A stretch of 9,260 nucleotides of DNA, taken from Bacteroidales bacterium. Its GTDB lineage: Bacteria; Bacteroidota; Bacteroidia; Bacteroidales; UBA932. The position numbers were made by a program, and so were the translations under genes. The notes below the pieces were generated by a model that ran no database searches, was not told the DNA's origin, and saw only the letters and a program-made list of their open reading frames with translations. Location of the stretch: positions 1 through 9,260 of the forward strand of contig JAGAAF010000012.1 of assembly GCA_017615435.1 (NCBI GenBank), read 5' to 3'. Shown piece after piece: positions 1-9,260 of this stretch (positions are counted from its first letter, which is position 1; the number at the start of each line of letters is the position of its first letter).

Positions 1-106
1 AACCAAATATACTGACAGATGAGGGCTGCCCGTCCGATGTCAGGGGGTAGGTTGCGAAGATAAATGACGGATCAAAACAGAACCCGGCTTACTTTCCCGC
101 CTTTTT
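1..106 (+). ncRNA. rnpB: RNase P RNA, 3' end (5' part outside window)
   Basis: This is the catalytic RNA of RNase P, which removes 5' leaders from pre-tRNAs. Only the last ~105 nucleotides are in the window. Seen in sequence: the near-universal 3' core block ACAGAACCCGGCTTA at 77-91, preceded by AGATAAATGAC (58-68) and GGGTAGG (45-51), in the same order as in the E. coli RNA. The GGT at 46-48 aligns with the L15 motif that pairs with the tRNA CCA end. A 6-bp stem pairs 12-17 with 38-43, corresponding to the stem just before GGGTAGG in E. coli. Only six bases separate GGGTAGG from AGATAAATGAC, so helix P18 appears absent. The 3' end is set at the T5 run (102-106), which probably acts as the terminator together with the P1 helix; its 5' strand lies outside the window. 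It converges on the ClC gene, whose stop codon begins six bases further on. Confidence 0.9.
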
Positions 107-111
107 CAATT

Positions 112-1872
112 TCAATCTTCAGCTGAAATACTCTTCAGCTCTTCCCTGTAAGCCATCAGGATTCGGGACTTGGAGATGAATCCGAGGTAGTGCTTCTGTG
201 CATCCAGCACGGGAAGACGCCAGGCTCCGGTCTTCTCGAACTTGTCCAGCACAGAACTCATCTTTTCGTCGCGCTCCACGTATGCCGGCGGCTGCTTCAT
301 CAGATTGAACACCCGCACGGAGTCGTACTTGGCCGAATCGAACATATGCTTGCGGATATCGTCCATCTCCACGACCCCCTGGAAGATACCGTCGGAACCT
401 ACGACAGGGAAAATTGCCGCCGTGGAATTAGATACCGTCTCCATAATCTCTCCCAGAGTGGCGTCCAACTCAAGCCTGGGGTACTTGTCGCGCACCAAAT
501 CGGAAGTCTTAAGCAAGGTCAGCACGGCCTGATCGGAATCGTGGGTCAGCAGTTCCCCGCTCTGGGCGATGCGCTTGGTGTAGATCGAATATCGCTCCCA
601 GATGCGCGTGACGCCGAACGACACTGCCGAAGCGGTAATCAGCGGCACGAGCAGATCGTAGCCGCCCGTAATCTCGGCGATAAGGAAGATCGAGGTCATC
701 GGAGCCTGCATAACGCCGGCCATCATAGCCGCCATTCCGACTAGGACGAAGTTGGGCTCTGGCATATCCCACAGCGCAGCGCCGGTCGCCACATTGAGCA
801 GTCGCGACACCACGAAGCCCACGATGGCGCCCACGAACAGCGTAGGACCGAAGGTACCTCCGACTCCCCCGCCCGCATTTGTCAGCGTCATAGACACGAC
901 CTTCACGAACATAATCACGATGAAAGCGGCCACAAGTCCCCACGGCGAACTGGTCAGGAATGCGAGCGGCGAATCGCCCATCTCACCGATGGCGCCGTTC
1001 AGCAGGATGCTCACATCGCCGTAGCCTTCACCGTAGAGAGGCGGGAAAAGGTAGACCAGAAGGCCCACGCCCACCGCGGCTATCGCCCAACGGACCCACG
1101 GCTTGCGGATACGGGCCAGGCGGTCCTCCAACTTCAGCGTCGTGCGGGTAAAGTAGAGCGACATAAAGCCACAGACCACGCCCAGGACTATGTAGAATGG
1201 GATATTTTTCAGCGCGAAAGGCGCGAGCGCACATTCGAACGACGGGCCGACACCACGGAAAAGGTAGGCCACAACGGTCGCGGAGACGGTGCTCAGCAGA
1301 AGCGGCATCATACTCGCCAGCGACACGTTGAACAGCAGGACCTCCATCGTGAACAGCAGTCCCGCCAGCGGAGCCTTGAACACGCCCGCGATAGCGCCCG
1401 CCGCACCGCATCCGACTAGAATGGTCATATTGCGGTACGACAGTTTTCCGGCCTTGCCTATGTTCGAGCCGATAGCGGCACCGGTGTAAACGATCGGAGC
1501 CTCCGCGCCCACAGAACCGCCGAAGCCGATGGTCAATGCCGATGTGAGCACGGACGACCACATATTGTGCGGCTTGATGCGCGAGTCGTTTGTGCTGACG
1601 GCAAGAAGGACCTTCGTCACGCCGTGACCTATGTTGTCCTTAATAACGTAGCGGACCAACACGCCGGAAATCAGCATACCGATGCCCGGCAGCACTATCC
1701 TCCACAGGGAGTTCGACTGAGTCATAGGCGCCACCGCAGCTTGCACCAGACCGATCAGGGCCTGAAGAAGAACTGCCGCAAAACCAGTGCAGAGCCCCAC
1801 GAGGAGGCTCAGCAACAGTAATTTTTGTGATTCTTTGAGTTTAAGCATCTCCGCCGTCGGCAGGGTCTTCAT
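112..1872 (-). CDS. ClC-family anion channel/transporter with C-terminal CBS pair
   Basis: This is an inner-membrane ClC protein of 586 residues that moves chloride or another anion, either as an H+ antiporter or as a channel. Seen: many hydrophobic segments between about residues 18 and 420; the gate motif GSVGAEAPIVYTG (119-131), with E124 at the external gating-glutamate position; PLAGLLFTMEVLL (168-180); GGGVGGTFGPTLFVGA (334-349); and a cytosolic tail with two CBS-like repeats (about 459-512 and 525-580), which in the family often bind nucleotides. Two canonical residues differ. The central-site Ser of GSGIP is replaced by His83 in GHGVT, and the internal proton glutamate (E203 in E. coli ClC) aligns with Val178. 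Transported ion and mechanism are therefore uncertain. The annotated ATG overlaps the upstream gene by 32 bases. A second in-frame ATG (Met9, 1846-1848) would cut the overlap to 8 bases without losing a membrane segment. No Shine-Dalgarno sequence decides between them. It is probably co-transcribed with the small upstream gene; no terminator of its own is visible. Confidence 0.93.
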   Translation of the reverse strand: MKTLPTAEMLKLKESQKLLLLSLLVGLCTGFAAVLLQALIGLVQAAVAPMTQSNSLWRIVLPGIGMLISGVLVRYVIKDNIGHGVTKVLLAVSTNDSRIKPHNMWSSVLTSALTIGFGGSVGAEAPIVYTGAAIGSNIGKAGKLSYRNMTILVGCGAAGAIAGVFKAPLAGLLFTMEVLLFNVSLASMMPLLLSTVSATVVAYLFRGVGPSFECALAPFALKNIPFYIVLGVVCGFMSLYFTRTTLKLEDRLARIRKPWVRWAIAAVGVGLLVYLFPPLYGEGYGDVSILLNGAIGEMGDSPLAFLTSSPWGLVAAFIVIMFVKVVSMTLTNAGGGVGGTFGPTLFVGAIVGFVVSRLLNVATGAALWDMPEPNFVLVGMAAMMAGVMQAPMTSIFLIAEITGGYDLLVPLITASAVSFGVTRIWERYSIYTKRIAQSGELLTHDSDQAVLTLLKTSDLVRDKYPRLELDATLGEIMETVSNSTAAIFPVVGSDGIFQGVVEMDDIRKHMFDSAKYDSVRVFNLMKQPPAYVERDEKMSSVLDKFEKTGAWRLPVLDAQKHYLGFISKSRILMAYREELKSISAED

Positions 1873-2215
1873 CCGAGCCGTACTGGGCGATGTTGTCGTC
1901 GGGAAGGGTTTCGCCCTCGCCGGAGGTGTCGGATGCAGAGGTGAGCTGCTCGGCCTCGGCCTCCTCTTCCCCTTCGAGCCAGCGCTCGAGATCTTCGACG
2001 TCGTCGACGTCCACCTTGATCTTTACGAGATATATTGCGTCGGGAATCTCGACAGTGACTGCATAGAAAGATGTGCCGTCCGGTTTCGGATACTTTACGA
2101 GATCGTTCAGATAATCGTTGAAACCGCGGGGATACTTCTCGGCAAACGCCGCTGCTAGTTCCTCGGACATATTTTCATAACTGACTACGTGTCTTTTCTT
2201 TCCGTCTGGTGTCAT
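1841..2215 (-). CDS. Small hypothetical protein with acidic C-terminal tail
   Basis: I cannot assign a function. The predicted protein has 124 residues, no signal peptide and no membrane segment. Residues 1-67 look like a compact alpha/beta domain: an amphipathic helix-rich start (MSEELAAAFAEKYPRGFNDY, 16-35) followed by beta-like strands around SFYAVTVEIP and AIYLVKIKV (49-68). From residue 69 onward there are 22 Asp/Glu and one basic residue (R78), so the tail is probably disordered. The domain resembles short uncharacterised proteins I associate with Bacteroidales genomes, but this is from memory. It is the first gene after the argS terminator, and its end overlaps the start of the ClC gene, which suggests translational coupling. 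It could be a cytosolic partner or regulator of the transporter, or simply co-located. Natural reading-frame composition and the conserved-looking domain argue that it is real. Confidence 0.75.
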   Translation of the reverse strand: MTPDGKKRHVVSYENMSEELAAAFAEKYPRGFNDYLNDLVKYPKPDGTSFYAVTVEIPDAIYLVKIKVDVDDVEDLERWLEGEEEAEAEQLTSASDTSGEGETLPDDNIAQYGSDEDPADGGDA

Positions 2216-2235
2216 AGTTTTATCTAATTGCGGTG

Positions 2236-2243
2236 CAATATTA
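2236..2243 (-). promoter_or_regulatory. Weak candidate -7 element for the small gene and ClC unit
   Basis: On the minus strand this reads TAATATTG, one mismatch from the Bacteroidota -7 consensus TAnnTTTG, about 20 bases before the ATG of the small gene. A T-rich TTTT lies where the TTTG -33 element would be, but those bases also belong to the U-tract of the argS terminator. Some promoter is expected here because the terminator isolates this unit; the exact element is a guess. Confidence 0.25.
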
Positions 2244-2259
2244 GGGCAATAAAACCGAA

Positions 2260-2304
2260 TAAAAAAATATTTCGGTGCTTTTTGTGAGAAAAAGCACCGA
2301 AATA
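2260..2304 (-). terminator. Rho-independent terminator of the htrA-rpoD-argS unit
   Basis: Bases 2268-2283 and 2289-2304 form a perfect 16-bp stem with a five-base loop (2284-2288). On the minus strand the stem is followed directly by a run of seven T (A2261-A2267 on the + strand), the classic intrinsic-terminator layout. It begins 21 bases after the argS stop codon. Read in the + direction there is no T-run, so the polarity points to argS. Confidence 0.88.
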
Positions 2305-2325
2305 CAGTTTAATGGGGTTGTCGGG

Positions 2326-4056
2326 CTACATTCTGTCCGGCAATTGAATACCCAGAAGTCCCATTGCGGAGCGCAGGACGTCGGCGACTACGGTGATGAG
2401 CTGAAGGCGCATCGAGAGGAGCGCGGCGTCCGGTTCGCGGAGTATCTGTGTGTCGTGGTAATACTGATTGAATTCCTTCGCGAGATCGTAGGAGTAGTTC
2501 GCCAGAACTGCCGGTGAGAAACTCTCAGCGGCCTCCGCCACCTTCGACGGGTATGCCGAAACGATCTTGACCAGTCGCACCTCCTTCGGGCTGAGCTCGG
2601 CGCTGTCCGCCGTCGCCGCCTTCAGGCCCTGCTCCTCCGCTTTGCGAAGGATGCTGCGGATGCGGGCGTGAGTGTACTGGATGAACGGACCGGTGTTGCC
2701 GTTGAAATCGATCGATTCCTTCGGATTGAAGAGCATAGTCTTCTTCGGGTCCACCTTCAGGATGAAGTACTTCAGGGCACCTAGGCCTATCATATGGTAC
2801 AACGCATCCTTTTCAGAGTCGCTGAGATCGGCGAGTTTGCCCGATTCGTCGGACGCGGCCTTCGCCTCCTGGTACATAGACTCGATAAGGTCGTCAGCGT
2901 CCACGACGGTTCCCTCGCGGGACTTCATCTTGCCCTCCGGCAGCTCGACCATACCGTAGCTGAGGTGATAGATGCGCTCCGCCCAGTCGAAACCGAGCTT
3001 TGCGAGCACGAGCTTCAGAACCTGGAAATGGTAGTCCTGCTCATTGCCGACCACATACACGTGTGAGTCGAGGCTATACTCGGCAAAACGCCTTTCGGCG
3101 GTACCGAGGTCCTGGGTCATATACACGGAAGTGCCGTCCGAACGGAGAAGCAACTTGCGGTCAAGCCCGTCGGCAGTGAGGTCGCACCACACCGAGCCGT
3201 CCGGATCACGCTGGAAAACGCCCATATCCAAGCCCTTCTGAACCAGCTCCTTTCCGAGCAGATAGGTCTGCGATTCGTAGTATGTGCGGTCGAAACTGAT
3301 TCCGAGGGCTTTGTAGGTCTGCGCGAAGCCTTCGAACACCCACTCGTTCATCATCTTCCAGAGCTCGCGGACGTGCTGGTCGCCCTTTTCCCAATCGACG
3401 AGCATCTTGTGCACGTCGTCGGCCACTGCCGGATTCTCATTCTCCATCTTGGCGTACTCCACATAGCAGTCGCCCACGAGGTGGTCGCCCTTCTTGCCGG
3501 TCGATTCCGGGGTAGCGCCGTTAAAACGCTGCTCCCACGCGTACATACTTTTGCAGATATGCACGCCACGGTCGTTCACGAGAGTTGCCTTGATCACCTT
3601 GTTGCCGGCAGCCTTCAGAATATCCGAAACCGATGCTCCAAGGAGATTGTTGCGGATATGGCCGAGATGAAGCGGCTTGTTGGTATTGGGCGAGGAGAAC
3701 TCGACCATTACGGTCTTACCCGTCGAAGGCAGCTGACCGTACTCTTTATCAGAGGCAACCGCCTGCAGGGCCTCCCTCCAGTATGTGCCGGAAAGGCAGA
3801 TATTGAGGAAACCCTTCACCACATTGTACGAAGAAACCTCAGGGCAGTTCGCCTTGAGGTATTCTCCTATTGCGTTGCCGGTAGCTTCCGGCGCCTGATG
3901 CGAGGTCTTGAGAAGAGGAAACACCACCAGGGTGTAGTCTCCCTCAAACTCTTTGCGGGTAACCGCCACCTGAAGCGATTCAGCCGGGCAATCCGCGCCG
4001 TACAGAGCTTTGACGGCCTCTGAGGCCTTCGCGGCAAGGAACTGTTCCGCAGTCAT
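2326..4056 (-). CDS. argS: Arginyl-tRNA synthetase
   Basis: This is a class Ia synthetase that charges tRNA-Arg with arginine in the cytosol, using ATP. It has 576 residues, within the usual range for bacterial ArgRS. Seen in order: the N-terminal Arg-specific additional domain (about 1-85, with KEFEGDYTLVVFPLLK); the Rossmann catalytic domain opened by VEFSSPNTNKPLHLGHIRN (118-136), where HLGH (130-133) is the HIGH signature; VNDRG (160-164); YVVGNEQDYHF (334-344); the KMSKS-like loop GKMKSREGT (375-383); and the anticodon-binding DALR domain (about 455-576, with GPFIQYTHARIRSI near its start). The loop reads KMKSR rather than KMSKS; departures at this loop are common in ArgRS and do not suggest inactivation. 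Its ATG shares one base with the rpoD stop codon (TAATG), implying coupled translation. Transcription ends at the hairpin at 2260-2304. Confidence 0.97.
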   Translation of the reverse strand: MTAEQFLAAKASEAVKALYGADCPAESLQVAVTRKEFEGDYTLVVFPLLKTSHQAPEATGNAIGEYLKANCPEVSSYNVVKGFLNICLSGTYWREALQAVASDKEYGQLPSTGKTVMVEFSSPNTNKPLHLGHIRNNLLGASVSDILKAAGNKVIKATLVNDRGVHICKSMYAWEQRFNGATPESTGKKGDHLVGDCYVEYAKMENENPAVADDVHKMLVDWEKGDQHVRELWKMMNEWVFEGFAQTYKALGISFDRTYYESQTYLLGKELVQKGLDMGVFQRDPDGSVWCDLTADGLDRKLLLRSDGTSVYMTQDLGTAERRFAEYSLDSHVYVVGNEQDYHFQVLKLVLAKLGFDWAERIYHLSYGMVELPEGKMKSREGTVVDADDLIESMYQEAKAASDESGKLADLSDSEKDALYHMIGLGALKYFILKVDPKKTMLFNPKESIDFNGNTGPFIQYTHARIRSILRKAEEQGLKAATADSAELSPKEVRLVKIVSAYPSKVAEAAESFSPAVLANYSYDLAKEFNQYYHDTQILREPDAALLSMRLQLITVVADVLRSAMGLLGIQLPDRM

Positions 4057-4916
4057 TATCCCAGATAAGTCTTAAGGAGTTTGCTTGCGGAAGGTTTCTT
4101 GAGTTTGCGTATGGCTTTCTCTTTGATCTGGCGGACACGCTCCCTCGTGAGGTCAAGGTTCTCTCCAATCTCCTCGAGAGTCATCTCCTGGCAGCCGATG
4201 CCGAAGAAACACTTGATGATCTCCCTCTCACGGGGAGTGAGGATCTGGAGCGAACGCTCGATCTCGGTGCTGAGCGACTCGTTCGTCAGGCCCTTGTCGG
4301 CCATAGGCGAATCGTCGTTCGGCAGAACGTCCAGAAGGCTGTTGTCTTCGCCTTCCACAAAGGGGGCGTCCACACTTACGTGGCGTCCTGAGACCCTTAA
4401 GGTATCGGCAATCTTATCGCGAGGGATGTCGATCATCTCGGCAAGTTCCTCAGTCGAAGGCTGGCGTTCGTTTTCCTGCTCGAAGCGGCCCAGGGCCTTG
4501 TTGATCTTATTGAGCGATCCGACCTGGTTCAGGGGCAGACGCACGATACGGCTCTGCTCAGCGAGGGCCTGGAGGATGCTCTGACGGATCCACCACACTG
4601 CGTAGGAGATGAACTTGAAACCGCGGGTTTCATCGAACTTCTCTGCGGCCTTGATCAGGCCGAGGTTTCCTTCGTTGATAAGGTCCGGGAGGCTGAGGCC
4701 CTGGTTCTGATACTGTTTCGCCACGGAAACCACGAACCTCAGGTTTGCCTTCGTGAGTTTTTCAAGCGCCTCCTGATCACCCTTGCGGATGCGCTGCGCG
4801 AGTTCCACTTCCTCTTCCGGTGACACCAACTCTTCGCGGCCTATTTCCTGGAGATACTTATCCAGCGAGGCGCTCTCGCGGTTGGTGATGCTTTTTGTAA
4901 TCTTAAGCTGTCTCAT
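4056..4916 (-). CDS. rpoD: Primary RNA polymerase sigma factor (sigma-70 family, Bacteroidota type)
   Basis: This is the housekeeping sigma factor, which directs RNA polymerase to -33/-7 promoters. At 286 residues it is much shorter than E. coli RpoD because region 1.1 and the non-conserved insert are missing, as is usual for the primary sigma of Bacteroides and relatives. Seen: region 1.2 (about 15-48, [20 protein letters not shown]); region 2 (49-122), including [20 protein letters not shown] (76-95) and the region 2.3/2.4 block [17 protein letters not shown] (98-114); region 3 (about 125-205); and region 4 (220-282), with the helix-turn-helix [20 protein letters not shown] (245-264). The close match to the Bacteroides primary sigma and the intact regions 1.2-4 separate it from ECF or alternative sigmas. 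It starts 16 bases after the htrA stop codon and overlaps argS by one base, so it is probably expressed from the htrA promoter, possibly helped by internal promoters that I cannot identify. Confidence 0.96.
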
Positions 4917-4932
4917 TATCTGTCTATAAACT

Positions 4933-6318
4933 TTACTGCTCCTTGGGGAGGGCGTAGAAGACAGAGCGTCCGGAGGGAGTAAGGCCTTCGATGACCACTA
5001 CCCTGCCGGCTTTTCCGGCTTCATCCACCACATCCTGAGGTTTCGAGACAGGATGATCATTCACATAGCGTATGATCAGGCCATCCTGAACTCCGGCATC
5101 AGCAAGTTTACCGTTTCCGACGGACACCACCTCGACTCCCGCCTTTATGCGGAGAGCTTTGAGTGTCTTGGAATCCGCAGCTTTGAGTTTCGCACCGTAG
5201 AATACGGCTGAGCCGTCTTCCTCGACTGTTCCCTTATTCTCCGAATCAGAGTTGAAGGTAACCTTTACGGTGTGGACCTTGCCGTCGCGGACATACTCAA
5301 TCTGGGCGACGTCGCCCGGATGGTAGCTGTTAACGATAGTCTGCAGCGATGAAGTGCCTTTGACGGGCTTGGAATCAACCTTACGGAGCACATCTCCGGC
5401 CTTGATTCCGGCTTTGTCTGCAGAGCCGCCTTTGCCGACCTCAACAATATATACGCCGTCAAGGTCGGAAAGTTTCATATCCTCGGCGATTTTTTCAGTG
5501 ACTGGGCTCATAGTAACTCCAAGTTTCGCCCTGCGCACCGCACCGAAGTCGATAAGGTCAGCAACTGTTTTCTTTACGATATTAGAAGGGACAGCAAAAG
5601 AATATCCGGTGTAAGATCCTGTCTGTGAGATAATTGCAGTGTTCACGCCTACCAGCTGGCCCTTCTTGTTCACGAGGGCGCCGCCGGAGTTGCCGGGGTT
5701 CACGGCAGCATCGGTCTGGATGAACGACTCAATCTTGAACTCTCCGGTGTAGTTCGGCATCGAACGGCCCTTGGCGCTGACGATGCCCGCCGTGATGGTG
5801 GAGCGCAGATCGTAGGGCGAGCCGATCGCGAGCACCCACTCGCCGAGGCGAAGCTGGTCGGAGTCGGCCATCTCGAGCGCCGGCAGGCCGGTCGCATCGA
5901 TCTTGATAAGGGCCACGTCAGTCGCGGGATCGGTGCCGATGATGGTGGCATCGTACGAGCGGTTGTTGTTGAGCGTCACGCGTACTTTTGTGGCCTGCGA
6001 GACGACGTGGTTATTGGTAACGATATATCCGTCCGGGCGGATGATCACACCCGAGCCGCTGCCCTTGCGCTCCCTGCTCTGAGGCTGCGCGAACTCGTCG
6101 CCGAAGAAGAAGCGGAAGAAAGGATCGTCCAGCTGGGGCGCCTGATAGGTCTGGGTAACTGTGACTTCCACATAAACGACGGCCTCCACGGCGGTCTCCG
6201 CTGCATAAGTGAAGTCGGGATAATCACGCTGCTGAGCGTCTGACAAATTGGCAGAATTGGCCGGCACCGCCGCCATCAGGCCAAGCGCTGCCAGAACTGA
6301 AAATAAGGTTTTACGCAT
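4933..6318 (-). CDS. htrA: HtrA/DegP-type periplasmic serine protease with two PDZ domains
   Basis: This is a Do/HtrA-family protease and chaperone that degrades or refolds damaged envelope proteins in the periplasm. It has 461 residues. Seen: a signal peptide (MRK, hydrophobic core, NSA with probable cleavage after A23); an LA-loop-like insert rich in Phe and Pro (about 55-85); and a trypsin-like domain with the triad His104 (TNNHVV), Asp134 (ATDVALIKI) and Ser211 in [13 protein letters not shown]1 (about 265-355) contains [20 protein letters not shown], with carboxylate-binding-loop-like features; a diverged PDZ2 (about 375-455) contains [17 protein letters not shown]. All catalytic residues are present, so it should be active. 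It heads the htrA-rpoD-argS cluster and is transcribed away from dnaN. I recall the htrA-rpoD order from Bacteroides genomes too. DegP and DegQ cannot be told apart from sequence alone. Confidence 0.95.
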
Positions 6319-6374
6319 AGTACTATTGATGTTTTAACTAATAATCGTATTCGCCTGTTCATAAAGTCAAATTG

Positions 6375-6407
6375 TGTGCCAAATATCCGAGATATTTGTT
6401 ATATTTG
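6375..6407 (+). promoter_or_regulatory. Predicted promoter of dnaN and the exonuclease gene
   Basis: TATATTTG (6400-6407) matches the Bacteroidota -7 consensus TAnnTTTG exactly. TGTG (6375-6378), 21 bases upstream, is one mismatch from the -33 TTTG. Transcription would begin near 6412-6414, giving a leader of just over 20 bases. AAGGA (6425-6429), five bases before the ATG, is a possible ribosome-binding site, which is unusual for this window. The sigma factor needed is encoded by rpoD in the neighbouring divergent unit. Confidence 0.55.
6380..6398. promoter_or_regulatory. Perfect 8-bp inverted repeat next to the dnaN promoter (possible operator)
   Basis: CAAATATC (6380-6387) and GATATTTG (6391-6398) are exact reverse complements separated by CGA. 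The repeat lies between the proposed -33 and -7 elements of dnaN and within the 116-bp gap shared with htrA. It could bind a dimeric regulator. Alternatively, each arm is a one-mismatch -7 element (GATATTTG), making a back-to-back pair facing dnaN and htrA. AT-rich promoter DNA can also produce such repeats by chance. Confidence 0.35.
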
Positions 6408-6434
6408 CCCAGATAAACAAAACCAAGGACACAT

Positions 6435-7553
6435 ATGGAATTCAACGTTTCGAGTGCAGAACTCCTCAAAAGCATAATGGATGTCAGCAAGGCCATCCCC
6501 GCCAAGTCGGTGCTTCCTATTCTTGAAAACTTCCTCTTCGTTGCCAAGGACGGCAGCCTTGAGATTACAGCCTCCGACCAGGAGCTCACCCTTCGCACCA
6601 CCCTCGCAGTGGAACTTCGCGAAGAAGGCAGCATCGCAGTGCCCGCCCGTCAGATGATAGACCTCATCAAGGCCCTGCCCGATCAGCCTGTCAGCATAAA
6701 GACCACTTCGGACAGCTCGTTCGAATGCACTTGGGCGAACGGTAATTCCTCCCTCCCCTTCTTCCCCGCCGAGGACTATCCCGAGATAGTCGGCGCAGGT
6801 GATGACGCGCAGACTGTCGTCTTCCCCGCCCAGGCCCTTGCCGACGGCATCAGCGGAACAATCTACGCCACCGCGGACGATGAGATGCGCCCTGCGATGA
6901 ACGGTATCTTCTTCGATATGGGAACCCAGAGCACCACCCTCGTGGCCTCGGATTCGCATAAGCTCATCTGCTACACCGACGCAGATCTGCAGGCCCCCGC
7001 AGAGGCTTCCTTCATCCTGCACAAGAGGCCCGCTGGCGTTCTGAAGAGCATCCTTGGTAAAGATGTCGAGACAGTCGAGGTCACCTTCGACACCAACACA
7101 GCCGTGTTCAAGTTCGGCCAGACCCTTATGGTCTGCCGCCTGATAGTCGGAAGGTATCCTAAATATCGCGACGTCATCCCTCAGAACAACAGCAATATCC
7201 TGAAGATCGAAAGGGCACAGCTTCTTGACACGGTGCGCCGTGTGGCAGTCTGCGCGAACAAAGCTTCGAACCATATCAAGTTCGACCTCAAGGCCGGCCA
7301 GCTGGAAATCACAGCCCAGGACCTCGGCTTCGCCATCGCAGCTTACGAAATGATCAAGTGCGATTACAACGGAGCAGACCTCAGCATAGGTTTCAAGAGC
7401 AGCTTCCTTATCGAGATCCTCAGCAATATGACCTGCGAGACCGTCGTAATGAAGTTCGCCGATCCTCGCCGTGCAGCCCTCATCGTCCCTGCGGAAGAAG
7501 AGGCCGAGAGCGAAAAGATCTGCGGCATCATTATGCCGATTATGGTTTCTTAA
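6435..7553 (+). CDS. dnaN: DNA polymerase III beta subunit (sliding clamp)
   Basis: This is the beta clamp, a ring-shaped dimer that tethers DNA polymerase III and repair enzymes to DNA. It has 372 residues, close to the family norm. Seen: three repeated clamp folds (about 1-120, 121-245 and 246-372); an N-terminus of the form MEFNVSSAELLKSIMDVSKA followed by PAKSVLPILENFLF (22-35); SLEITASDQELTLRT in the first domain; GIFFDMGTQSTTLVASDSHK in the second; GRYPKYRDVIP, matching the conserved interdomain segment that includes part of the partner-binding cleft; and the typical end MPIMVS, where bacterial clamps usually end in MPM-type residues contributing to the same cleft. It is transcribed divergently from htrA. 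The exonuclease gene follows after 12 bases, so the two are very probably one operon. It is not next to dnaA in this window. Confidence 0.98.
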   Translation: MEFNVSSAELLKSIMDVSKAIPAKSVLPILENFLFVAKDGSLEITASDQELTLRTTLAVELREEGSIAVPARQMIDLIKALPDQPVSIKTTSDSSFECTWANGNSSLPFFPAEDYPEIVGAGDDAQTVVFPAQALADGISGTIYATADDEMRPAMNGIFFDMGTQSTTLVASDSHKLICYTDADLQAPAEASFILHKRPAGVLKSILGKDVETVEVTFDTNTAVFKFGQTLMVCRLIVGRYPKYRDVIPQNNSNILKIERAQLLDTVRRVAVCANKASNHIKFDLKAGQLEITAQDLGFAIAAYEMIKCDYNGADLSIGFKSSFLIEILSNMTCETVVMKFADPRRAALIVPAEEEAESEKICGIIMPIMVS

Positions 7554-7565
7554 ATACTTTAGCCA

Positions 7566-8414
7566 ATGGAACTCAACCTCCAGAGGCCCCTGCTTTTCTT
7601 CGATATCGAGAGCACGGGGCTTAATATCCCTAACGACAGCATCATCGAACTCAGTTTCGTGAAAGTCTTCCCCGGCGGCGAGCAGCGCATCAAGACCTGG
7701 AAGATCAAACCCTGGGACTACGAAAACAAGCGCCAGCGCCCGATAGACCCGCAGGCCTCGAAGGTGAACGGCGTCACTGACGATATGCTGGTTGACTGCC
7801 CCACTTTCTATGAAGTGGCGGACGAAGTTGCGGAGTGGCTGAAAGACAGCGACCTTGCAGGCTTCAACTCAGCCAAGTTCGACCTCCCGATGCTCGCAGA
7901 GGAATTCGAGAGGGTCGAGCTCGCCGGCAAGCACTTGGATGTGGACCTGCACTCACCGAAGATGGTGGACGTGCAGAATATCTACCACGCTATGGAGCCC
8001 CGCAATCTGCGCGCAGCTTACCGCTTCTACTGCGGAGGCGAGGATTTCGACAATGCGCACACCGCCGAGGCTGACACAGTCGCCACCTACGAAGTGCTGA
8101 AGGGACAGCTGGACCGTTATCCGGATCTGCTTAAGAATGACGTGGAGAGCCTCGCGGCCTTTGTCGGAAAGAAATATGTGGACTTCGCCGGACATCTTAT
8201 CTTCAACGATGAGGGCGAAGAAGTTGTCAATTTCGGAAAGCACAAAGGCAAAACAGCCCGCCAGGTCTATGCTTCAGACCCGTCCTACTTCTCCTGGATT
8301 CAGGACGGCAGTTTCACCCTGGACACCAAAAAGCAGTTCGCCCGCCTCAAAGAAAAATTCAGCCGCGAGAGACTCGCAGCCAAATCCACGATGGGCGGCG
8401 GAAAACTGTTCTAA
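7566..8414 (+). CDS. DEDDh 3'-5' exonuclease with ExoX-like C-terminal domain
   Basis: This is a DnaQ/epsilon-like exonuclease of 282 residues that removes nucleotides from DNA 3' ends. Seen: Exo I FFDIESTG with the metal ligands Asp13 and Glu15; VNGVTDDML (68-75); Exo II LAGFNSAKFDLPML with Asp106; and Exo III HTAEADTVATYEVL with His165 and Asp170, completing the DEDDh set. After the nuclease domain comes a short module with VNFGKHKGKTARQVYASDPS (221-240) and Y241/W244, which resembles the C-terminal domain of exodeoxyribonuclease X and related enzymes. It sits directly behind dnaN, which suggests a role in replication fidelity or repair at the clamp. Whether it is the main proofreading subunit or a separate repair exonuclease cannot be decided here. 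It has no PHP or BRCT domain. Its stop codon overlaps that of the convergent flavoprotein gene. Confidence 0.94.
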   Translation: MELNLQRPLLFFDIESTGLNIPNDSIIELSFVKVFPGGEQRIKTWKIKPWDYENKRQRPIDPQASKVNGVTDDMLVDCPTFYEVADEVAEWLKDSDLAGFNSAKFDLPMLAEEFERVELAGKHLDVDLHSPKMVDVQNIYHAMEPRNLRAAYRFYCGGEDFDNAHTAEADTVATYEVLKGQLDRYPDLLKNDVESLAAFVGKKYVDFAGHLIFNDEGEEVVNFGKHKGKTARQVYASDPSYFSWIQDGSFTLDTKKQFARLKEKFSRERLAAKSTMGGGKLF

Positions 8415-9260
8415 AGCGCTTTCGCGGCGCTGATTCCGGCTAAATAGCCCGTGCAGAAGGCGGCTTGGAGGTTATAGCCTCCGGTGTCGCAGTCCATATC
8501 GAGGACCTCGCCGCAGAAATATAAGCCGGGGACGATGCGGGATTCGAGAGTTTTCGCAACTACGTCGTCAGTGCTGACTCCGCCGGCTGTGATGACGCAG
8601 CGTTCGTAGCCCACGTAGCCGGCGATGTCGAACTTCCACTCCTTCAGCGCCTTTGCTATAGTGACGAGGTTCACCCACACCTTGGTGTCGGTGCGGCTGC
8701 GGCGCTCGAGCGTCATTATTCCGGGATTGCAGGATACAAACGCCGGGATGAGTTCCCACGGCATCAGCTTGCCAAGCAGGATACGGCATTTCTCCTTTTC
8801 GTGCAGCCGTGCGCTGCGGGGGTCTTGATCGACATCCTTCCAAAGGTCTTTGATGCGTGCGGTAAGCTCGGTCAACTCCACTCCGCTCTTGAGGTCAAGC
8901 ACCACGCTCACTCGCGAGCCGTTGATCAAGGATTTCACGGCCTTACGGCTGATTTGGAAGCCCACAGGGCCTTCGAGTCCACCGTCCGTGAAATCCACGT
9001 CACCGAACTCCTCCTGCGCGACCGTCCCCTCTACCAGCAACTGAACGCCTATGTTCTTCAGCTGCATCCCGCAGAGCTTCGAGCCAAGGTCCGCCATAGG
9101 GGTAGCACGGTCGATATGGAGGTCGCGCGAGTCGGTTTGCTTGTAGCCAAGCGGGACGAGCGCGGTGAGCGAGGGGAAGGTGGGGACGATGTGGTGCCCC
9201 GAATCAGCGGCCCAGCGAAGACCGTCGCCGGTCGAGCCGGTCGTGGGATAGCTGAGCCCT
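8411..9260 (-). CDS. HI0933/BaiN-like FAD-dependent oxidoreductase, N-terminus outside window
   Basis: This is a flavoprotein of the HI0933 family (YhiN/BaiN relatives), whose physiological substrates are mostly unknown. The C-terminal 282 residues are visible. I extended the frame to the window edge because codons upstream of the in-frame ATG at 9095-9097 are open and encode conserved family sequence: SYPTTGSTGDG (9253-9221) and later TALVPL. Further motifs are FTDGGLEGPVGFQISR (insert domain) and, near the end, TAGGVSTDDV, TLESR, GLYFCGEVLD and GGYNLQAAFCTGYLAG, the flavin-binding C-terminal signature. The N-terminal Rossmann GxGxxG half, roughly 120-130 residues, should lie beyond 9260. 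The gene converges on the exonuclease gene, with a 4-base overlap of the ends. BaiN-like names imply bile-acid reduction, but family membership alone does not show that activity. Confidence 0.93.
   Translation of the reverse strand, partial: GLSYPTTGSTGDGLRWAADSGHHIVPTFPSLTALVPLGYKQTDSRDLHIDRATPMADLGSKLCGMQLKNIGVQLLVEGTVAQEEFGDVDFTDGGLEGPVGFQISRKAVKSLINGSRVSVVLDLKSGVELTELTARIKDLWKDVDQDPRSARLHEKEKCRILLGKLMPWELIPAFVSCNPGIMTLERRSRTDTKVWVNLVTIAKALKEWKFDIAGYVGYERCVITAGGVSTDDVVAKTLESRIVPGLYFCGEVLDMDCDTGGYNLQAAFCTGYLAGISAAKAL

Follow-up and report, generated by a model that had tools for sequence, protein, structure and literature searches.

Why should a piece of an ordinary bacterial chromosome contain every possible four-letter word except one? 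The first 9,260 bases of contig JAGAAF010000012.1 from a Bacteroidales bacterium (assembly GCA_017615435.1), in the following called the window, carry ordinary chromosomal genes (Table 1), and an original prediction made from the letters alone had claimed that the palindrome CATG is completely absent from them. The machine count, which that prediction had itself set as its refutation test, gave 0 CATG against 24.1 expected from a maximal-order Markov model (CAT, ATG and AT counts) and 35.0 expected from base composition. CATG is the sole one of the 256 tetramers with zero occurrences in the window, and all other 15 self-complementary tetranucleotides are present as claimed. Similarly, the roughly 100 ATG of which none should be preceded by C turned out to be 102 ATG. 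CTAG does occur as stated, but the two positions quoted for it (1415 and 2780) are one base too low; it is also scarce, with 4 copies against 9.5 expected (positions 741, 1416, 2155 and 2781). The absence of CATG extends to every annotated part of the window and thus to all of its genes, whereas for rnpB the claim holds for the 3' end (1–107), the rest of this gene lying beyond the window edge. In ten hand-chosen relatives with normal CATG the longest run free of the word measures 727–2,502 bases. Thus, CATG is confirmed as a strongly under-represented palindrome in the window, and it is the one word that is absent there.

As most of the window is coding sequence, an unusual chance gap or a general codon bias might be thought to produce such a picture, but the codon data make this extremely improbable. 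When the synonymous codons of the eight open reading frames (ORFs; 8,769 coding bases) were shuffled 2,000 times, CATG appeared on average 31.8 times (standard deviation 3.9) and never fewer than 17 times. Codons preceding ATG end in C in 0 of 69 cases, compared to 1,194 of 2,846 for all other codons, and histidine before G is encoded 11 times by CAC and never by CAT, while other contexts show 11 CAC and 12 CAT. The avoidance therefore exceeds codon bias, as had been proposed; the dnaN tail quoted in support (7527–7544) is exact, and the Asp-Met, Asn-Met and Leu-Met examples are covered solely through the count of 0 in 69. With a simple ORF definition (150 codons or more), we found the same in relatives described below: in the genome G300 only 76 of 3,367 NNY-ATG pairs use C, compared to 736 of 1,005 in 13 hand-chosen non-avoiding loci, despite the fact that the ORFs of G300 mostly prefer C over T outside this context. 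The NNC-ATG share is also low in eight avoider loci (14/395) and in the genome G287 (35/1,352); a second batch of G287 sequence entered these codon counts only. Every codon pair that carries CATG in coding sequence can be changed silently, which means that the loss of the word need not alter any protein; the same is true of most other palindromes.

In order to see how the word was lost, the window was compared with relatives found by a dnaN scan of genome contigs, from which the best 80 of 118 loci were kept. Their records read Bacteroidales, Bacteroidia, Bacteroides or Cryptobacteroides, three of them Candidatus Cryptobacteroides. A set of 300 genomes was furthermore drawn from the genus of one relative (G001), and as it includes G010 and G011, from which the closely related loci L002 and L003 come, the window, a piece of an uncultured gut bacterium, probably belongs to the same genus of Cryptobacteroides-type Bacteroidales, a genus name which we infer. 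The closest loci, L001 and L002, share 84–85% DNA identity with the window and have a normal CATG content, with observed/expected ratios (o/e) of 0.97 and 1.21. Nevertheless, none of their aligned CATG are kept in the window (0/20 from L001 and 0/36 from L002, 15 of them common to both, i.e. 15/20 one way and 15/36 the other), whereas about 60% of GATG and CATC are retained in the same comparisons. The 17 CATG common to L002 and a further relative, L004, are all lost as well; being present in both, they are ancestral and were lost on the lineage of the window. Since sisters of 84–85% identity have normal CATG, the purge arose after that split and is a recent, lineage-local event.

The type of change depends on the codon phase. 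Of the sites present in L001, all 5 in the phase CAT-G read CAC-G in the window, all 3 at xCA-TG have a silent xCB-TG instead and all 10 at xxC-ATG have turned into xxT-ATG; the remaining two are intergenic. L002 and L004 show the same pattern against the window plus a few other changes, some of them non-silent. Thus, the genetic code and not the chemistry of one base sets which letter changed, and as the loss proceeds almost always through the phase-specific silent change, it reflects selection against the word and not a mutation bias or the decay of a modified base. The latter had been offered as a possible cause and can be put in a definite form, in which CATG is the target of a cytosine-5 methyltransferase and the marked base is deaminated, giving TATG or CATA. 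Indeed, among the changes in the window C-to-T or G-to-A is the most frequent (11/20 from L001, or 10/21 in a pairwise alignment, and 22/36 from L002), but 10 of these 11 and 20 of these 22 lie at xxC-ATG, a phase in which C-to-T never alters the amino acid, and in the other codon phases A or T is altered instead with few exceptions. Decay also predicts that CATG is kept where C-to-T is non-silent, and the window keeps none. Eight other pairs of an avoider and a normal locus, hand-chosen and with some rows sharing a locus, retain 5 of 251 sites compared to 86 of 186 in five normal/normal pairs; the changes at the 251 sites are spread over all positions (79 C-to-T or G-to-A, 78 at A/T, 53 C/G transversions and 36 multiple). 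Moreover, a search for the C5-methyltransferase family PF00145 gave no match in 26 of 34 strongly avoiding genomes scanned. We therefore regard mutational decay as very unlikely.

The locus L003 might show an intermediate stage. It is 94% identical to L001 but shares only 2 of 13 CATG with it, compared to 205 of 332 for ten control words, and if L002 is used to polarise the differences between both, six losses of CATG fall to L003 and two to L001. For whole genomes we used CATGGC counts, a proxy that samples part of the CATG sites and whose densities are calculated from rounded genome sizes; it gives 273 per Mb for the L003 genome and 1,129 for that of L002. This looks like a purge in progress, as judged from these comparisons.

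The comparison of CATG density across related genomes, which had been suggested as a check, showed a near-total loss that is patchy, with normal values in the closest relatives. Loci with a CATG o/e of at most 0.12 (the window, L005, L042, L070, L072, L049 with L063, and L053 with L074) fall into seven clades of a dnaN tree, a single-gene tree in which the clades were counted visually and without regard to support values. Each of these clades adjoins less depleted relatives, some of which are partly depleted (o/e 0.58 in L060 and 0.46 in L006). L053, comprising 21 kb around dnaN of G001, has 0 CATG where 87 are expected. When all words with at least 15 expected copies were tested in 81 loci for an o/e below 0.25, CATG was depleted in 9 of 80 loci, GATC in 2 of 80, ACGT in 1 of 80 and CTAG in 28 of 47, while the other twelve palindromes gave none and non-palindromes 2 of 18,410. 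Among the 300 genomes the median density is 714 CATGGC per Mb, with 31 genomes between 175 and 450 and 35 below 175; the latter, below a quarter of the median, were defined as strong avoiders. In G300, of which 1.08 Mb out of about 2.0 Mb were read, 173 CATG are present where 4,094 are expected, and the word is missing from 454 of 545 two-kb bins. As the window is probably a metagenomic contig, one could also think of an artefact in which NlaIII digestion of a library, assembly or binning eliminated DNA bearing CATG. However, the aligned positions are present with mostly silent substitutions instead of gaps, the eight other strongly depleted loci come from several different sampling projects and CATG is retained in the ribosomal DNA of the strong avoider G125, so that such an origin is hardly credible.

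Which agent could select against a single word? We consider it likely that the window's chromosome was purged by restriction-site avoidance, caused by CATG-specific orthodox Type II systems that come and go. A system consisting of a nuclease of the NlaIII/IceA1 type and CATG adenine methyltransferases would enter a lineage and start the purge; its nuclease might occasionally cut incompletely methylated sites in its own host, which would put a cost on each site, and cells with fewer CATG would win until the word is cleared. Such systems would move between the species of the genus, and the purge would outlast the loss of the system. An NlaIII-type system had already been named as a plausible cause and is the best supported one, but the long-term pressure proposed along with it does not agree with a purge that postdates the split from sisters of 84–85% identity.

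The evidence for this scenario comes from the relatives, in which the proposed search for NlaIII-like genes was carried out. A first scan for PF05315, the family of NlaIII/IceA1-type nucleases, covered 30 chosen genomes, and among all 300 a full-length match is present in two, G004 (E 5e-117) and G147 (E 3e-114). In both, the nuclease is encoded between a PF01555-type methyltransferase of 262–264 amino acids (beta) and a D12 methyltransferase (G004:C51 and G147:C58, the latter cut by a contig end). A third genome, G175, carries the same methyltransferase pair (D12 gene on G175:C26) with a different protein of 383 amino acids in between and no PF05315. The beta enzyme aligns at E <= 1e-10 in exactly these three of the 300 genomes, and single-protein methyltransferase scans, which covered 50 of the 80 loci, added weak hits to G033 and G002 (E about 1e-6). 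All three are strong avoiders, taking as a set the 7th, 11th and 17th lowest ranks in CATGGC density; three random genomes would all fall within the lowest 17 of 300 with a chance of 1.5e-4 according to our own arithmetic, which ignores kinship. The association in these three genomes supports a CATG system as the driver of the purge and may be extended to the other avoiders including the window, and by homology the predicted enzymes would be specific for CATG.

The arrangement resembles NlaIII from Neisseria lactamica and IceA1-HpyIM from Helicobacter pylori in having the PF05315 nuclease beside a D12 methyltransferase, and differs from both by the second, PF01555-type methyltransferase. None of these genes lies within the 9,260 bases of the window. 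Titles cited in PMC3261200 and PMC13340068 describe iceA1 as CATG-recognizing and hpyIM as the gene of a CATG-specific methyltransferase; the cleavage of CATG by NlaIII and IceA1 rests here on these two papers, one of which prints CTAG in its body text.

Several observations weigh against such systems as the general cause. The NlaIII-type pair was not found in 31 of the 34 strong avoiders scanned, so that the search for these genes answered the original prediction only in part. Of the 35 strong avoiders G133 had been omitted (ratio to control pattern 0.68), and G008, the genome of L005 and an avoider at its dnaN locus, was removed from the comparison set of 26, leaving 25 others. When PF02086, PF01555 and PF00145 were searched at E <= 0.001, 16 of the 34 had no match to any of the three families; this number rises to 18 of 34 if G069 and G125 are discounted, whose PF01555 matches are below the curated cut-off and resemble RNA methyltransferases. 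At least one of the families is found in 18 of 34 avoiders (these two included) and 12 of 25 others; avoiders thus show no general enrichment of methyltransferases. G045 and G024, two genomes with normal CATG, have enzymes distantly related to the D12 methyltransferase (31% and 26% identity). A screen for methyltransferase motifs in G287 (246 kb) and G300 (1.08 Mb) revealed no convincing hidden system, with only PrmC- and RsmD-like motifs in G300 according to our own reading. A number of the system-less assemblies are small and likely to be incomplete, an objection that is harder to raise against G300 with 2.0 Mb in long contigs. Finally, H. pylori has a CATG o/e of 1.25 according to a passage in PMC3849833, although iceA1-hpyIM is known there; as most H. 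pylori iceA1 genes are described as broken (PMC13340068), this species is only a partial counter-example.

The same observations could point to an agent other than classical restriction-modification that penalises CATG in the genus, e.g. a nuclease that works without a partner methyltransferase, self being marked by the absence of the word, or a novel modification system. The 16 avoiders without a match, the few CATG of G300 next to nothing but PrmC- and RsmD-like motifs and the spread of strong avoidance over seven clades would fit such an agent. On the other hand, G300 and G287 (58 CATG in 246 kb) keep sites that an unguarded nuclease would cut, many of the system-less genomes look incomplete (1.3–2.0 Mb), and the loss of a system after the purge gives the same picture, as passages of PMC4687349 indicate. 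We therefore regard this alternative as unlikely. A specific form of it, in which Cryptobacteroides lineages would repeatedly come to define self by the lack of CATG, the methyltransferase becomes dispensable after the purge and an undescribed CATG-directed agent keeps the genome clean in those avoiders that match none of the three families, appears quite doubtful.

Several further leads on the CATG system itself were rejected. PF07669 is no useful marker, since 47 of 60 genomes match, mostly with proteins that are PrmC- or HsdM-like by length and position, and avoiders are not clearly separated. A methyltransferase candidate in L161 was by our own reading a PAP2-like ORF. At a spot 3' of lptG with matching flanks, G004 has the NlaIII-type operon and G001 a different C5-methyltransferase cassette (L081:171-2965 and L180:4699-6880), made up of a C5 methyltransferase with a helix-turn-helix-like start (own reading) and an ORF of 273 amino acids. 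This spot as a general home of CATG systems was not confirmed, as 16 other strong avoiders showed no methyltransferase-like ORF there, several of the stretches stopping at contig ends, and only one stray SPPF motif was seen, in a G220 ORF with a lipoprotein-like start. A descent of the CATG-free state of G001 from an ancestor carrying the G004 system is also unsupported, as both are only 76–80% identical at the dnaN locus. Elsewhere in G001 a restriction island (G001:C2, L179:1722-9801) encodes a REase-ARP/PDDEXK_13 nuclease, a D12 methyltransferase, a weak AAA_5 match, DUF2357-PDDEXK_7 and a KAP-type NTPase; it retains 14 CATG in 10 kb, while L053 of the same genome has none.

The pressure has its limits, as shown by sites that are still present in avoiders. 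One conserved CATG in the 16S ribosomal RNA (rRNA) gene is present in 18 of 18 genomes (of the 300) in which this stretch was found, including the strong avoiders G102 and G125, the latter with 4 CATG in 626 bases of 16S; in both, the 16S lies on short or contig-end pieces, for which misjoining or misbinning is possible. As expected, this retention fits a tolerable, selected cost. In G300 the quarter of ORFs with the lowest preference for C holds 41 of 76 NNC-ATG and 33 of 35 CAT-G remnants, a concentration which suggests recent arrival. In the same genome, on G300:C7 (L288:4989-13137), CATG persists in what we read as the core genes rpoB (3), rplA (3) and tuf (1).

Avoidance of palindromes is usually a modest under-representation across many of them and not the removal of one word. 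Restriction-site avoidance as such is of a known kind. Passages of Rusinov 2015 (PMC4687349) attribute site avoidance to orthodox Type II systems, including traces of lost ones, and our case is similar in that a palindromic Type II site is avoided and related genomes have the pattern in common irrespective of whether a system is still encoded. According to PMC10359461 target avoidance tracks the taxonomic distribution of Type II systems, and the avoidance of palindromes in chromosomes and plasmids treated in PMC10359461 and PMC2745766 is likewise comparable. In contrast to the avoidance described in the passages of Rusinov 2015, the loss is here near-complete (none in 9.3 kb of the window, none in L053), separates relatives of 84–85% identity and recurs in seven clades. 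Its completeness, speed and recurrence are thus unusual and extreme. No report of a CATG purge in Bacteroidales or Cryptobacteroides was found in the literature searched, which covered few subscription papers.

For the question of how much force restriction exerts on the make-up of a chromosome, the genus is a natural experiment of unusual clarity. With sister pairs with and without CATG at hand, the rate of a purge, the cost per site and the recovery time after loss of a system become measurable, and novel CATG-directed defences can be sought in those strong avoiders in which no system is visible.

Table 1: Features of the window and the evidence on which each assignment is based.
Feature	Position	Strand	CATG	Evidence
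Whole window	1..9260		none	count 0, codon shuffle
rnpB 3' end (RNase P class A), cut by window edge	1..107	+	none	Rfam RF00010, E 1.1e-11, under Rfam gathering score
ClC-type chloride channel with CBS domains (clc)	112..1872	-	none	PF00654, PF00571
ORF of 124 amino acids between clc and argS, no Pfam match	1841..2215	-	none	ORF list, Pfam
argS, arginyl-tRNA synthetase	2326..4056	-	none	PF00750, PF05746
RpoD-type sigma factor	4056..4916	-	none	PF00140, PF04542, PF04539, PF04545
DegP/HtrA-type protease	4933..6318	-	none	PF13365, PF13180
dnaN, DNA polymerase III beta subunit	6435..7553	+	none	PF00712, PF02767, PF02768
RNase T/ExoX-like exonuclease	7566..8414	+	none	PF00929, PF20600
HI0933-like flavoprotein	8411..9097	-	none	PF03486, PF22780

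Other palindromes are depleted in the relatives as well. The scarcity of CTAG is genus-wide, unlike the patchy loss of CATG. L066 (19,552 bases) has 0 ACGT where 33.4 are expected, GATC is reduced in L005 (15 against 80.9 expected, in a locus that is also CATG-less) and in L055 (5 against 21.3), and AGCT shows an o/e of 0.25 in L050.
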